From positions 1-64,000 of the forward strand of contig PALM01000045.1 of the NCBI GenBank assembly GCA_002706365.1: 64,000 nucleotides of DNA, read 5' to 3'. The notes under the pieces were generated by a model. It saw nothing but the letters and a program-made list of their open reading frames with translations, did not search any database and was not told the DNA's origin. Shown here piece by piece: positions 47,278 through 52,197 of this stretch. The translations under genes and the position numbers were made by a program. The stretch is from Flavobacteriales bacterium (lineage in GTDB: Bacteria > Bacteroidota > Bacteroidia > Flavobacteriales_E > Vicingaceae). The first letter of the stretch is position 1. Every line of letters starts with the position of its first letter.

Positions 47278-47308
47278 TTTGCATGTATATACATATTGTT
47301 TAACTTTG
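47278..47308 (+). promoter_or_regulatory. Sigma-factor/carotenoid operon promoter
   Basis: TTTG (47278-47281), a 19-base spacer and TAACTTTG (47301-47308), a good Bacteroidota promoter. ATG follows 25 bases later. A 19-base spacer filled by an operator is the hallmark of MerR-controlled promoters. Arms GTTTAAC (47298-47304) and GTTAAAC (47319-47325) form an additional inverted repeat around the likely start point. Confidence 0.65.
47283..47294. promoter_or_regulatory. Candidate CarH operator (palindrome ATGTATATACAT)
   Basis: Perfect 12-base palindrome inside the spacer of the promoter at 47278-47308, between the CarH-like gene and the ECF sigma gene. Position and symmetry suit a dimeric MerR-fold protein. 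Binding is inferred, not shown. Confidence 0.6.
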
Positions 47309-47333
47309 GGTCAAATCAGTTAAACATAAAATC

Positions 47334-47846: not shown

Positions 47847-49313
47847 GTGGAAAAAAGAATAATCGTCATTGGATCCGGTTTTGCTTCAATGGCAGCTGCT
47901 ACCAGTTTAGCTGATAAAGGATATAAGGTAGTAGTTCTAGAAAAAAATGATCAGGCCGGAGGAAGAGCTAGACAATTCAAAACCTCCGGCTTTACTTTTG
48001 ACATGGGTCCAAGTTGGTACTGGATGCCAGATGTGTTTGAAAACTACTTTCAAAAGTTTGGCAAGGAGATCAAAGAGCACTACCAATTAGATCGCTTGGA
48101 TCCTTCCTATAAGATATTCTTTGAAGATGAGGAATGGAATATTCCCGCGAATCTAGAAGAACTCAAAGCAGATTTCGAGAAAAGAGAAAAAGGAAGTGCG
48201 GTAAAGCTCGATAAGTTCCTCAAGGAGGCAGAGTACAAATACCGTGTGGGCATGGACGATCTAGTCCATAAACCAAGCAGATCCATTTTGGAATTTGCCA
48301 ATTGGAAAGTGATTTCTGGTGTCTTTAAAATGCAATTATTCAGGTCGCTGTCTGCACATGTAAAGCATTATTTCAAAGACGATAAGATTCGTCAACTATT
48401 GGAGTTTCCAGTCTTGTTTCTAGGCGCGGAACCTTCAAAAACGCCAGCTTTATACAGCCTTATGAACTATGCAGATATCGTTCTGGGAACTTGGTATCCT
48501 CAAGGTGGCATGCATGAGATCGTAAAAGCCATGAAGAAATTGGCCGAAGATAAAGGGGTTGAATTTCGCATGCAATCTGAGGTCAAAGGCTTCGAAATTG
48601 AAGACTCAAAGATCATTGCAGCCAGAACAGATTCCGGTAATATAGAGGCAGATATTTTTGTTTCAGGAGCAGATTACCATCATACCGAAGAATTATTGGG
48701 AGATGATTTTCGCAATTATGATGAGCAATATTGGGACAGCAGGAAAATGGCTCCTTCCTCATTGTTGTTTTACCTAGGAATAGATAGAAAAGTCGATAAC
48801 CTTCTACATCACAACCTCTTTTTTGATGAGGATTTCGATCAACATGCCAAAGAAATCTACGATCAGCCTGATTGGCCAAGCAAACCTCTTTTCTATGTAT
48901 CTGCTCCATCTAAAACAGATAAAACGGTCGCTCCGGAAGGATGCGAGAATCTGTTTCTGCTCATGCCCGTAGCTCCTAATTTGAAGGATGATGAAAGTAT
49001 GCGAGAGAAATACTACGAAATGATGATGGATCGATTGGAAGCACGTTGCGGACATAAGATCAGAGAGCATGTGATCTATAAAAGGTCATATGCACACAGT
49101 GATTTCAAATCCGACTATCATGCATATAAAGGCAATGCATATGGCTTGGCAAACACGCTTAGACAAACGGCTATTCTTAAGCCATCTCTCAAGAGTAAGA
49201 AGCTCAAGAATTTCTATTATACAGGTCAGTTAACCACCCCAGGCCCTGGTGTTCCACCATCATTGATATCAGGCCAGGTTGTGGCAAAAGAAGTAATTAA
49301 ACAGCTATCTTAG
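47847..49313 (+). CDS. crtI: Phytoene desaturase
   Basis: FAD-dependent carotenoid desaturase converting phytoene towards lycopene. The 488 aa protein starts at GTG 47847 with IIVIGSGFASMAAATSLADKGYKVVVLEK (ADP-binding fold), then QAGGRARQF and FDMGPSWYWMPDVFENYF, and ends with the CrtI signature FYYTGQLTTPGPGVPPSLISG. No ATG start fits before the Rossmann strand. It lies nine bases after the sigma gene and four bases before crtB. Confidence 0.95.
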   Translation: MEKRIIVIGSGFASMAAATSLADKGYKVVVLEKNDQAGGRARQFKTSGFTFDMGPSWYWMPDVFENYFQKFGKEIKEHYQLDRLDPSYKIFFEDEEWNIPANLEELKADFEKREKGSAVKLDKFLKEAEYKYRVGMDDLVHKPSRSILEFANWKVISGVFKMQLFRSLSAHVKHYFKDDKIRQLLEFPVLFLGAEPSKTPALYSLMNYADIVLGTWYPQGGMHEIVKAMKKLAEDKGVEFRMQSEVKGFEIEDSKIIAARTDSGNIEADIFVSGADYHHTEELLGDDFRNYDEQYWDSRKMAPSSLLFYLGIDRKVDNLLHHNLFFDEDFDQHAKEIYDQPDWPSKPLFYVSAPSKTDKTVAPEGCENLFLLMPVAPNLKDDESMREKYYEMMMDRLEARCGHKIREHVIYKRSYAHSDFKSDYHAYKGNAYGLANTLRQTAILKPSLKSKKLKNFYYTGQLTTPGPGVPPSLISGQVVAKEVIKQLS

Positions 49314-49317
49314 TGGC

Positions 49318-50154
49318 ATGGAGCAACTGTTTCTCAAAGCTTCCCTGATTAGCAGTCGGGCATTTACCAATACCTACAGTACTTCCTTTTCCCTTGGAAT
49401 CAAAGCACTGGATAAATCCATTCATGAGGCAATATATGCCATTTATGGTTTTGTGAGGGTGGCAGATGAGATCGTTGACACCTTTCACGACCAAAACAAA
49501 GAAAAGCTCATTCATGAGTTCCAAAACGATACATTCAAAGCCATAAATGATGGCTTTAGCACCAATGCTATACTACATAGCTTTCAATGGGCAGTGAATC
49601 ACTATGGGATCGATCACAATCATATCACTGCTTTCTTCGATAGCATGATCATGGATCTGCATAAGACCTCATACAATCGAGAAGAGTATGAGAAATACAT
49701 TTATGGCTCTGCAGAAGTTGTGGGCTTGATGTGTTTGAAAGTCTTTTGTCACCCAAACGATGAGCAATATAAAGCGCTGATTCCACCAGCCAGAAAGCTC
49801 GGATCGGCATTTCAAAAGATCAACTTCCTTCGCGATCTCAAAGCCGATTACTTTGATAAGGGGAGAATGTACTTTCCCAATCTGAGCATTGAAGAATTCA
49901 ATGCAACAACTAAGAAAACGATTGAAGCAGAACTTGAAGATGAGTTTGCCGAGGCATTCAAGGGCATCAAAAAGCTGCCCTCAAACTGTAAATTTGGAGT
50001 TTACACGGCTTACACCTACTACCTAGAGCTCTTCAAGAAGATTCGCAAGAAAGATGCAGAGCTTATCAAGAATGAAAGAGTGAGAATCCCCGACCGCATG
50101 AAGAATTGGCTATTATTGAGGTCAATACTGCGTTACAAGCTAGGATTGATCTAA
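49318..50154 (+). CDS. crtB: Phytoene synthase
   Basis: Condenses two geranylgeranyl diphosphates to phytoene (squalene/phytoene synthase family). 278 aa. The two Asp-rich Mg-binding motifs are VRVADEIVDTFHD (residues about 42-54) and INFLRDLKADYFDKGRMYFP (about 168-187). It immediately follows crtI, as in most carotenoid clusters. No lycopene cyclase or hydroxylase gene follows here, so later steps are encoded elsewhere or lycopene is the end product. Confidence 0.95.
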   Translation: MEQLFLKASLISSRAFTNTYSTSFSLGIKALDKSIHEAIYAIYGFVRVADEIVDTFHDQNKEKLIHEFQNDTFKAINDGFSTNAILHSFQWAVNHYGIDHNHITAFFDSMIMDLHKTSYNREEYEKYIYGSAEVVGLMCLKVFCHPNDEQYKALIPPARKLGSAFQKINFLRDLKADYFDKGRMYFPNLSIEEFNATTKKTIEAELEDEFAEAFKGIKKLPSNCKFGVYTAYTYYLELFKKIRKKDAELIKNERVRIPDRMKNWLLLRSILRYKLGLI

Positions 50155-50201: not shown

Positions 50202-50888
50202 ATGAAGAACATTCTTATTGTAGGAGCAAGTAGTGGAATAGGGAAAGAAATTGCCAAACAATTTTTGAATTTAGAAGATTACAATCTAATTCTAGCCTCA
50301 CGTTCAAAACCTGACTTAGAAGGAGATTTCCAATATCGTGAATTGGATGTTATGGGAGAGGTAGACTTGGATCTTCCGGATGAACTTCACGGATTGGTTT
50401 ACGCTCCAGGCTCCATAAACCTCAAGCCTTTTCACCGACTTAATGAAGAGGATTTTTTGAATGATTTTCAATTGAATACAATTGGGGCTGTAAAGGTAAT
50501 TCAGACGGCACTGAAGTCTTTGAAAAACTCAAAGAATGCATCCATAGTGCTCTTTAGTACAGTGGCTGTCGGTAATGGATTGAGCTTCCACACGAGTGTA
50601 TCTTCAGCAAAAGGGGCTCTAGAAGGTTTGGGCAGAGCACTATCAGCAGAGCTTGCTCCGCACATTCGAGTGAATATGATTGCGCCTTCATTGACAGATA
50701 CTCCTCTAGCAGAAAGACTGCTTTCATCAGACGAAAAGCGCAAAGCAAACGCAGAGCGCCATCCGCTTAAGAAAATTGGGACTACTTCAGATATTGCAAA
50801 TGCCGCCAGATATTTGCTAACTGATGAGTCGGCTTGGACAACAGGTCAAACCTTAACTATTGATGGAGGACTCAGCGTAATTCGATAA
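50202..50888 (+). CDS. SDR-family protein lacking the catalytic tyrosine
   Basis: 228 aa short-chain dehydrogenase fold: ILIVGASSGIGKEIAKQFL (cofactor glycines), an NAG-like segment reduced to YAPGSI, and IRVNMIAPSLTDTPLAERLL near the end. Where the YxxxK active site is expected the sequence reads HTSVSSAKGALEGLGRAL: the Lys is present, but the residue four before it is Val, not Tyr. The fold and nucleotide site seem intact, so it may bind a dinucleotide without classical oxidoreductase activity. It lies between crtB and the photolyase gene, two bases from the latter, and is probably part of the same light-response operon. Confidence 0.85.
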   Translation: MKNILIVGASSGIGKEIAKQFLNLEDYNLILASRSKPDLEGDFQYRELDVMGEVDLDLPDELHGLVYAPGSINLKPFHRLNEEDFLNDFQLNTIGAVKVIQTALKSLKNSKNASIVLFSTVAVGNGLSFHTSVSSAKGALEGLGRALSAELAPHIRVNMIAPSLTDTPLAERLLSSDEKRKANAERHPLKKIGTTSDIANAARYLLTDESAWTTGQTLTIDGGLSVIR

Positions 50889-50889
50889 A

Positions 50890-52197
50890 ATGAGCAAAGA
50901 AAAAGTAAGCGTCTTTTGGTTTCGTAGAGACCTTAGGTTAGACGATAATGTGGGTTTGTATGAAGCACTGAATGGAGAGTTCCCTGTACTTCCAATCTTC
51001 ATTTTCGATAGGAACATTCTCGATGATCTTGAAGATAAAGACGATGCCAGACTCAGCTTTATCCACAAACAGCTAGAAGGAATCCAAAGCGAACTAAAAG
51101 GCAAAGGCAGCTCCATACACACATACTATGGACAGCCAATAGAGGTTTTCAAGAAGCTGAGGGATGAATATGAAATTCAAAGCGTTTACGCCAATGAAGA
51201 TTATGAGCCATATGCTCTCCAAAGGGATGAAGAAGTTAGTCAACTCCTAAAGACGAATGGAATTGAATTAAATCTTTACAAAGACCAAGTAATCTTTGCA
51301 AAGGATGAGGTTGTAAAAGACGATGGAGATCCCTATCTGGTATATACACCCTACAGCAAGAAATGGTTGAGTAATCTCAGAGAAGAAGATCTCGAAAGTA
51401 AATCTTCAGCGCTCTATTTTGAGAATTGGGTCCAAACAACTAAAGGAAAGATCATTCCGCTAGAAGAAATGGGCTTTGTGAAAAGTGAGATCGAAATACC
51501 AAATGCAACATTGTCCGACCACACGCTTGAGATCTATCATAAAGAGAGGGATTATCCTGCAAAAGACAGCACTTCCAGACTGGGGATTCACCTTAGGTTC
51601 GGTACTGTGAGTATTAGAAAGATTGCCAGACATGCTCAAGAGATCAGTGAGGTATTCCTCAAAGAGCTTATCTGGAGAGAGTTTTACATGATGATCCTCT
51701 ATAACTTCCCCGAAGTAGTAGAAAACAACTTCAAATCCAAATACGACAGTCTGAAATGGAGGAATAATGAAGCGGATTTTGAGAAATGGAAGCAAGGAAA
51801 AACAGGATTCCCATTGGTTGATGCAGGCATGCGACAACTCAACAAAACCGGCTTTATGCACAATAGGATCCGCATGCTTGTGGCCAGTTTTCTAACCAAA
51901 CACCTTTTAATAGATTGGAGGTGGGGAGAGGCCTATTTTGCGTCTAAACTTCTAGATTATGAATTGGCTTCCAATAATGGGAATTGGCAGTGGGCTGCTG
52001 GAACGGGTGTTGATGCTCAGCCCTATTTCAGGATCTTCAATCCCCATAGTCAGATAAAGAAATTCGACCCAAAAGAGCAGTATATCAAGCGATGGGTGCC
52101 TGAATTCAATACTCCTTCATATGCAGGAGAAATGCTAGAACATAAAGCTGCGCGAGAGCGCGCATTGGAAGCATTTAAAGAGGCGGCAAACAATTAA
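50890..52197 (+). CDS. phrB: Deoxyribodipyrimidine photolyase / cryptochrome family protein
   Basis: Blue-light flavoenzyme repairing cyclobutane pyrimidine dimers. The 435 aa protein starts VSVFWFRRDLRLDDNVGLYEAL (alpha/beta antenna domain) and has the FAD-binding helical domain in its C-terminal half: EVFLKELIWREFYMMIL, GFPLVDAGMRQLNKTGFMHNR and NNGNWQWAAGTGVDAQPYFR. These are the class I CPD-photolyase signatures; a 6-4 photolyase or cryptochrome role is less likely but not excluded. It starts one base after the SDR stop. Confidence 0.93.
   Translation: MSKEKVSVFWFRRDLRLDDNVGLYEALNGEFPVLPIFIFDRNILDDLEDKDDARLSFIHKQLEGIQSELKGKGSSIHTYYGQPIEVFKKLRDEYEIQSVYANEDYEPYALQRDEEVSQLLKTNGIELNLYKDQVIFAKDEVVKDDGDPYLVYTPYSKKWLSNLREEDLESKSSALYFENWVQTTKGKIIPLEEMGFVKSEIEIPNATLSDHTLEIYHKERDYPAKDSTSRLGIHLRFGTVSIRKIARHAQEISEVFLKELIWREFYMMILYNFPEVVENNFKSKYDSLKWRNNEADFEKWKQGKTGFPLVDAGMRQLNKTGFMHNRIRMLVASFLTKHLLIDWRWGEAYFASKLLDYELASNNGNWQWAAGTGVDAQPYFRIFNPHSQIKKFDPKEQYIKRWVPEFNTPSYAGEMLEHKAARERALEAFKEAANN

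Follow-up and report, generated by a model that had tools for sequence, protein, structure and literature searches.

A promoter of the Bacteroidota housekeeping type, upstream of an ECF sigma factor gene and carotenoid genes, probably carries two kinds of repressor site, a paired CarH-type operator and a MarR-type box, by which its activity would be gated by two signals. The promoter lies in a window of 64,000 nucleotides (the whole stretch of DNA that was analysed), which is part of a 3.0-Mb genome (G000:C45) whose closest named relatives are Vicingaceae and other Flavobacteriales. The sequences of both kinds of site, their conservation, their spacing, the targets that they share and the association of the operator with carH were all observed here, and the coordinates of the features are given in Table 1.

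Table 1. Genes and promoter elements of the ECF sigma-carotenoid locus in the window
Feature	Position	Strand	Basis or remark
CarH/LitR-like regulator gene, 289 aa	46338..47207	+	MerR HTH + B12-binding_2 + B12-binding
O1, upstream candidate CarH-type operator, TTGTTTAA-N16-ACAAACAA	47241..47272	.	2 mismatches; 55 bp from O2
-33 element, TTTG	47278..47281	+	read from sequence; consensus in PMC6847099 (available part)
Spacer, 19 bases	47282-47300	+	read from sequence
TGTATATACA, core of 12-bp palindrome, in promoter spacer	47284..47293	.	probable MarR-type operator box
O2, candidate CarH-type operator, TTGTTTAA-N16-TTAAACAT	47296..47327	.	1 mismatch; covers -7 box and predicted start
-7 element, TAACTTTG	47301..47308	+	read from sequence; geometry in PMC6847099 (available part)
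ECF sigma factor gene, 167 aa	47334..47837	+	Pfam Sigma70_r2, r4_2; first gene of predicted controlled operon
crtI-like phytoene desaturase gene	47847..49313	+	Pfam Amino_oxidase 8.2e-32
crtB-like phytoene synthase gene	49318..50154	+	Pfam SQS_PSY 9.4e-45
Short-chain dehydrogenase (SDR) gene, co-directional	50202..50888	+	Pfam adh_short_C2 6.5e-38
Cryptochrome/photolyase gene, co-directional	50890..52197	+	Pfam FAD_binding_7 2.5e-75, DNA_photolyase 6.1e-41

The genes are arranged on the plus strand in the order of a gene with MerR-HTH and B12 domains, ECF sigma, crtI-like, crtB-like, SDR and cryptochrome/photolyase; the third of these was taken by us to be crtI from its context. The product of the first gene has the composition of CarH/LitR proteins, a MerR-type HTH followed by B12-binding domains (PF13411, 1.6e-16; PF02607, 8e-08; PF02310, 2.5e-05, the last with a score of 24.5, under the model cut-off of 32.1). 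Its closest solved structure was that of T. thermophilus CarH (E = 1.4e-21), and in the alignment with this protein the cobalamin motifs W-x9-EH and E/D-x-H-x-x-G were present. All elements pointed out in the initial annotation were found, letter for letter, in the 126-bp gap that separates the carH-like and ECF sigma genes. That annotation had regarded them as an operator for the adjacent CarH-like gene; the gap does hold an operator region, most likely for the CarH-like protein, but the target is the downstream ECF/crt genes, since the CarH-like gene lies upstream of the promoter on the same strand and the promoter drives the ECF/crt operon, not the CarH-like gene.

Primary-sigma promoters of Bacteroidota carry TTTG and TAnnTTTG (TAHHTTTG) at -33/-7; the -7 box occupies -12 to -5, and transcription starts 4–5 nt beyond it (PMC6847099; this paper and the others cited below were available in part, and statements resting on them are limited to those parts). 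Both elements were found in the gap upstream of the ECF gene, as had been read initially, and from the box geometry the start is predicted at approximately 47313, 4 nt past the -7 box. With this start TTTG falls at -35 to -32, its usual place, so that the 19-base spacer is normal for Bacteroidota, and the earlier argument that it is a sign of MerR-type control, which needs a lengthened spacer, therefore fails. A scan with a generic sigma-70 model was uninformative (9 sites vs 5.2 expected).

The operator consensus is TTGTTTAA-N16-TTAAACAA. O2 extends from about -17 to +15 relative to the predicted start, and inside it lies the inverted repeat GTTTAAC (47298-47304)/GTTAAAC (47319-47325) that had been noticed around the expected start; this repeat proved to be real and part of a conserved operator. 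DNA upstream of ECF genes was collected from 17 of the 18 loci of the family (orthologues of the ECF sigma gene were present in 18 of 46 family genomes; L019 starts inside the gene) and from 79 of 80 further Bacteroidota loci (L032 was left out, its contig starting in the gene), and removal of 9 near-duplicates gave 87 non-redundant regions. The inverted pair GTTTA..TAAAC occurred at offset 23 in 61 of these, compared with 0.1 expected from 20 dinucleotide shuffles, and at offset 24 in 14, a set that may overlap the former. With at most 2 mismatches, TTGTTTAA-N16/17-TTAAACAA was present in 77 of the 87 regions (0–2 in ten mononucleotide shuffles). On visual inspection, the half-site overlapped by the -7 box is the left one in most of L003-L013 and the right one in L014-L017; since the half-site spacing is constant though this overlap shifts, the operator is conserved independently of the promoter box. 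The genome of the window contains only 4 sites at ≤2 mismatches, namely O1, O2 and two that precede a DUF4397 gene and a fasciclin gene, respectively, and at ≤3 mismatches its 36 sites were not above the controls (62 for the reversed pattern, 35 for wrong spacing; off-spacing controls in the operator search were N14 and N16-17). Known CarH sites share a TnnACA core (PMC9304148, section 8), which the half-site TAAACA fits, and in the window this core was found as TAAACA at 47321 and TGTTTA at 47297 and 47242. Direct TnnACA repeats at offset 21 were also enriched (26 of 87 regions vs 1.25 expected), probably because TTTG of the -7 box runs into TTAAACAA.

At least two operator copies at ≤3 mismatches were present in 61 of the 87 regions. 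Among 53 neighbouring pairs 30–100 bp apart, 24 were spaced at 41.5–46 bp, 8 at 53–55, the class to which O1 and O2 belong, 13 at 63–65 and 8 elsewhere, and the steps between the classes equal one helical turn. In the other loci of the family 15 of 20 pairs were spaced at 42–45 bp, and both the 42–45 and the 53–55 class were seen within this one family. In Marinoscillum furvescens DSM 4134 (L073), a cultured relative whose layout is the same, two sites are spaced at 44.5 bp. As the spacing classes largely follow clades, these counts represent few independent events, and a formal p-value overstates the evidence. We tentatively consider, at somewhat short of even chances, that Bacteroidota CarH has an operator grammar of its own, in which inverted TGTTTA-N18-TAAACA sites are paired with their centres whole helical turns apart (~44, 54 and 64 bp), which would imply cooperative looping or clamping of two dimers on one face, and in which, in one genus group, a MarR box between the pair would make a light-AND-redox gate on the ECF-carotenoid operon.

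The distribution of the operator points to the B12-type CarH/LitR-like protein as the one that would bind it and, rather than its own gene, would repress the ECF-sigma/crtI/crtB operon. The operator was found in 57 of 60 regions whose locus includes CarH and in 10 of 27 whose locus lacks it, and in these 10 CarH may be encoded elsewhere or past the contig end. Exact sites numbered 67 in 32 carH-positive family genomes vs 8 in 14 negative ones, and strict-form sites 29 vs 2, where some of the negative genomes are incomplete and G031 was scored positive on a fragment. All 15 intact family carH loci examined had an operator site at ≤2 mismatches, and most of them are without an ECF orthologue. 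In family genomes, 53 of 65 distinct exact sites were located upstream of a gene and 11 inside genes; 38 of the 53 stood at genes for ECF, crtI, carH, cryptochrome, fasciclin, DUF4397, PTPS/amine oxidase, SRPBCC, SDR or DUF2867, a set of names partly drawn from the operator-bearing loci themselves, and 15 of the 65 precede genes beyond this set. By comparison, 11 of 13 off-spacing control sites were inside genes and 0 of 13 at the named targets. Because several of the comparison proteins came from site-bearing loci, the fair target count is smaller (with the window proteins except ECF: cryptochrome 4, crtI 4, carH without crtI 3, DUF2867 1).

Several loci are worth recording individually. L189 (G031:C420:20000-26000) has decayed carH and ECF remnants upstream of crtI/crtB and has lost the operator, and represents a natural knock-out of the CarH/operator module. 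A secreted-looking DUF4397-repeat protein is encoded by one of the commonest operator neighbours (G000:C22:73123-73154, L130, and many family loci). In G029, which has three carH homologues and nine exact operator sites, the most among the 46 family genomes, one CarH-type operator (L201) lies between divergent genes for 6-pyruvoyl-tetrahydropterin synthase and an amine oxidase, a pair possibly for a photolyase cofactor. Two ECF genes of Spirosoma (L091, L092) have the operator pattern, and the CarH motif was absent from the fetched loci; their regulator may be encoded elsewhere. Whether the CarH wing (TNIRYY or GGTRIY) co-varies with the operator was tested, and the idea was rejected, as both GG-type loci also have a site.

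The perfect 12-bp palindrome ATGTATATACAT described in the spacer was confirmed at 47283-47294. Most likely, judging from where else its core TGTATATACA recurs, it is a box separate from the CarH operator and serves as the operator of an autoregulated MarR-type repressor. The core occupies about -29 to -20 relative to the predicted start, and TGTAnnnACA was seen in this position in 9 of 9 related ECF promoters, with flanks and middle varying (in most of the nine the middle is degenerate), and 13 bp before TGTTTA in 8 of 8 aligned promoters, plus L011 by eye. With a profile built from the other promoters, the 10-bp box scored 8.0–15.9 in L003-L011 (shuffled 95% level 6.4, 99% level 13.2). The looser TGT-N4-ACA occurred in 13 of 16 family regions vs 1.9 expected, and as TGTnnnnACA it also matches TGTTTAAACA in L017. 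Outside the ECF promoters, TGTATATACA was present exactly in 19 of 30 yceI upstream regions, seven genomes without detected carH among them (G010, G012, G017, G018, G019, G025 and G044). The tandem form TGTnnnnACA-N5-TGTATATACA gave 40 matches in 26 of 46 genomes (reversed control, 0). In addition to those at yceI, these include L259 and L260, at a gene of the MarR family, and L281, L282, L287 and L288, where the match lies between genes for MarR and pirin. Among 30 MarR genes the start was located for 21 (not for the other 9), and 20 of these 21, the one at G000:C22:45289-45732 in the window's own genome included, had TGTnnnnACA within 110 bp upstream; in the latter, TGTTTGTACA-ATAGA-TGTATCTACA directly precedes the -7 box TATATTTG. 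The same box is thus found at the regulator's own promoter, as in a MarR-type operator. It was absent from three g11 yceI promoters (L239, L247, L250) and from the promoter of a same-genus MarR gene (L294). The ECF promoters have one copy of the box, 7 bp upstream of the -7 box, and the yceI promoters usually have it in tandem, directly adjoining the -7 box. The notion that TGTATATACA is an auto-promoter of the ECF sigma factor was discarded, as the box also occurs at yceI in genomes without an ECF orthologue.

These distributions bear on other ways of reading the promoter. A chance origin of the palindrome within an AT-rich spacer is unlikely. It is true that perfect 12-bp palindromes in general are no more frequent than expected by chance (25 in 64 kb; 13–30 in ten shuffles), and that the exact word, with one copy in the window and two in the 3.0-Mb genome, is expected about 0.7 times per genome by an estimate from base composition, so that its rarity alone proves nothing; chance, however, does not account for the constant offset in all nine related promoters despite variable middle and flanks, for box scores above the shuffled 95% level or for the excess of TGT-N4-ACA. 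We give similarly little credence to the box being a third contact of a CarH oligomer. TATACA at 47288 fits the TnnACA core and CarH operators are described as plastic (PMC9304148), yet in the aligned promoters the T and A required by TnnACA or TGTnnA (columns -9 and -8) are not conserved, whereas TGTA and ACA are, and in genomes lacking carH the box is found by itself at other genes. The most far-fetched is the reading of the initial annotation, in which the palindrome in a long spacer is the site of a MerR-type protein that twists the promoter as MerR activators do, and we consider it very improbable. The palindrome and the 19-base spacer are truly present, and MerR activators do use 19-bp spacers (PMC9478572), but TTTG-N19-TAnnTTTG is normal in Bacteroidota and not lengthened, proteins related to CarH are repressors according to PMC9304148 and PMC6739363, and the box is common to the MarR gene's and yceI promoters, also where carH was not detected, which also tells against the palindrome as a CarH site.

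As for the inverted repeat, the TTGTTTAA operator could be genuine and yet be the site of a different light-regulon regulator, such as one of the CRP/FNR type like Thermus LdrP (cited within PMC7064467). The regions that keep the operator with no CarH in the locus would agree with this, but the tight association with carH, also where the ECF gene is absent, and the loss of the operator along with carH in G031 make it rather doubtful, and we consider the CarH-like protein to be the more likely one to bind it.

For a promoter with both a CarH-type operator pair and a MarR-type box, we infer the following with regard to the binding proteins, repression, light response and MarR signal. In the dark, the B12-loaded CarH-like protein would occupy O1 and O2 and block RNA polymerase; in the light it would be released, by which the ECF sigma, crtI and crtB genes, and perhaps the SDR and cryptochrome genes, would be turned on. 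The TGTATATACA box would be held by the autoregulated MarR-family repressor, which would also serve yceI, pirin and nitroreductase genes, so the ligand of MarR would also have to clear -29 to -20, and this second gate probably responds to redox or electrophiles. The ECF product may widen the response, as LitS does (PMC12705666).

The CarH/LitR B12 photoreceptor-repressors of Thermus, Bacillus megaterium and Myxococcales resemble the present system in the MerR HTH and B12 domains, W-x9-EH and E-x-H-x-x-G motifs, the TnnACA half-site core and an operator overlapping the promoter of the carotenoid operon. Known sites of the CarH tetramer are tandem 11-bp direct repeats (PMC9304148, section 8), whereas here inverted half-sites lie 24 bp apart and are doubled; three tandem 11-bp direct repeats, the canonical CarH operator, were found in 0 of the 87 regions. 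In Myxococcus xanthus, the CarA operator likewise has a pair of inverted repeats close to the promoter, to which two dimers bind cooperatively (PMC9304148); it measures about 55 bp in all, while the repeats found here are 32 bp each and as a pair extend over 87 bp, a comparison of layout and not of sequence. Class II LitR proteins of Pseudomonas, PplR1/PmlR2, also have sites made of two TnnACA-like words, which overlap a light promoter (PMC9758184), but their consensus T(G/A)TACA-N12-TGTA(C/T)A was present in 0 of the 87 regions. In Corynebacterium, the light-induced carotenoid promoter is similarly under MarR-type control, by CrtR, although CarH/LitR is absent there and the site has a TTAA motif with no inverted repeat found, according to the available part of PMC6739363.

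LitS of Streptomyces is labelled an ECF-type sigma factor. The LitR-LitS system is alike in that a B12 MerR-type regulator is placed over an ECF-type sigma gene serving crt genes; sigma-LitS transcribes a separate crtE promoter (PMC12705666), whereas here the ECF and crt genes apparently form one operon and CarH-type sites stand directly at many target genes. Light-induced pigment has been reported in a member of Bacteroidota, Chryseobacterium lacus, its mechanism being called unknown in the available part of PMC7064467, and in the open-licence literature we found no description of a CarH/LitR operator in Bacteroidota or of the MarR/yceI box. A phylum-wide operator of fixed spacing would add a further CarH operator architecture and give a sequence test for light regulons in common aquatic Bacteroidota, and with the MarR box in the same promoter as a two-signal gate, pigment making may answer to two signals.

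Elsewhere in the genome of the window (G000:C18, L001 339-2142), yceI is divergent from a gene that we take to be DNA polymerase IV-like, and TGTTGAACAA repeats lie between the two.
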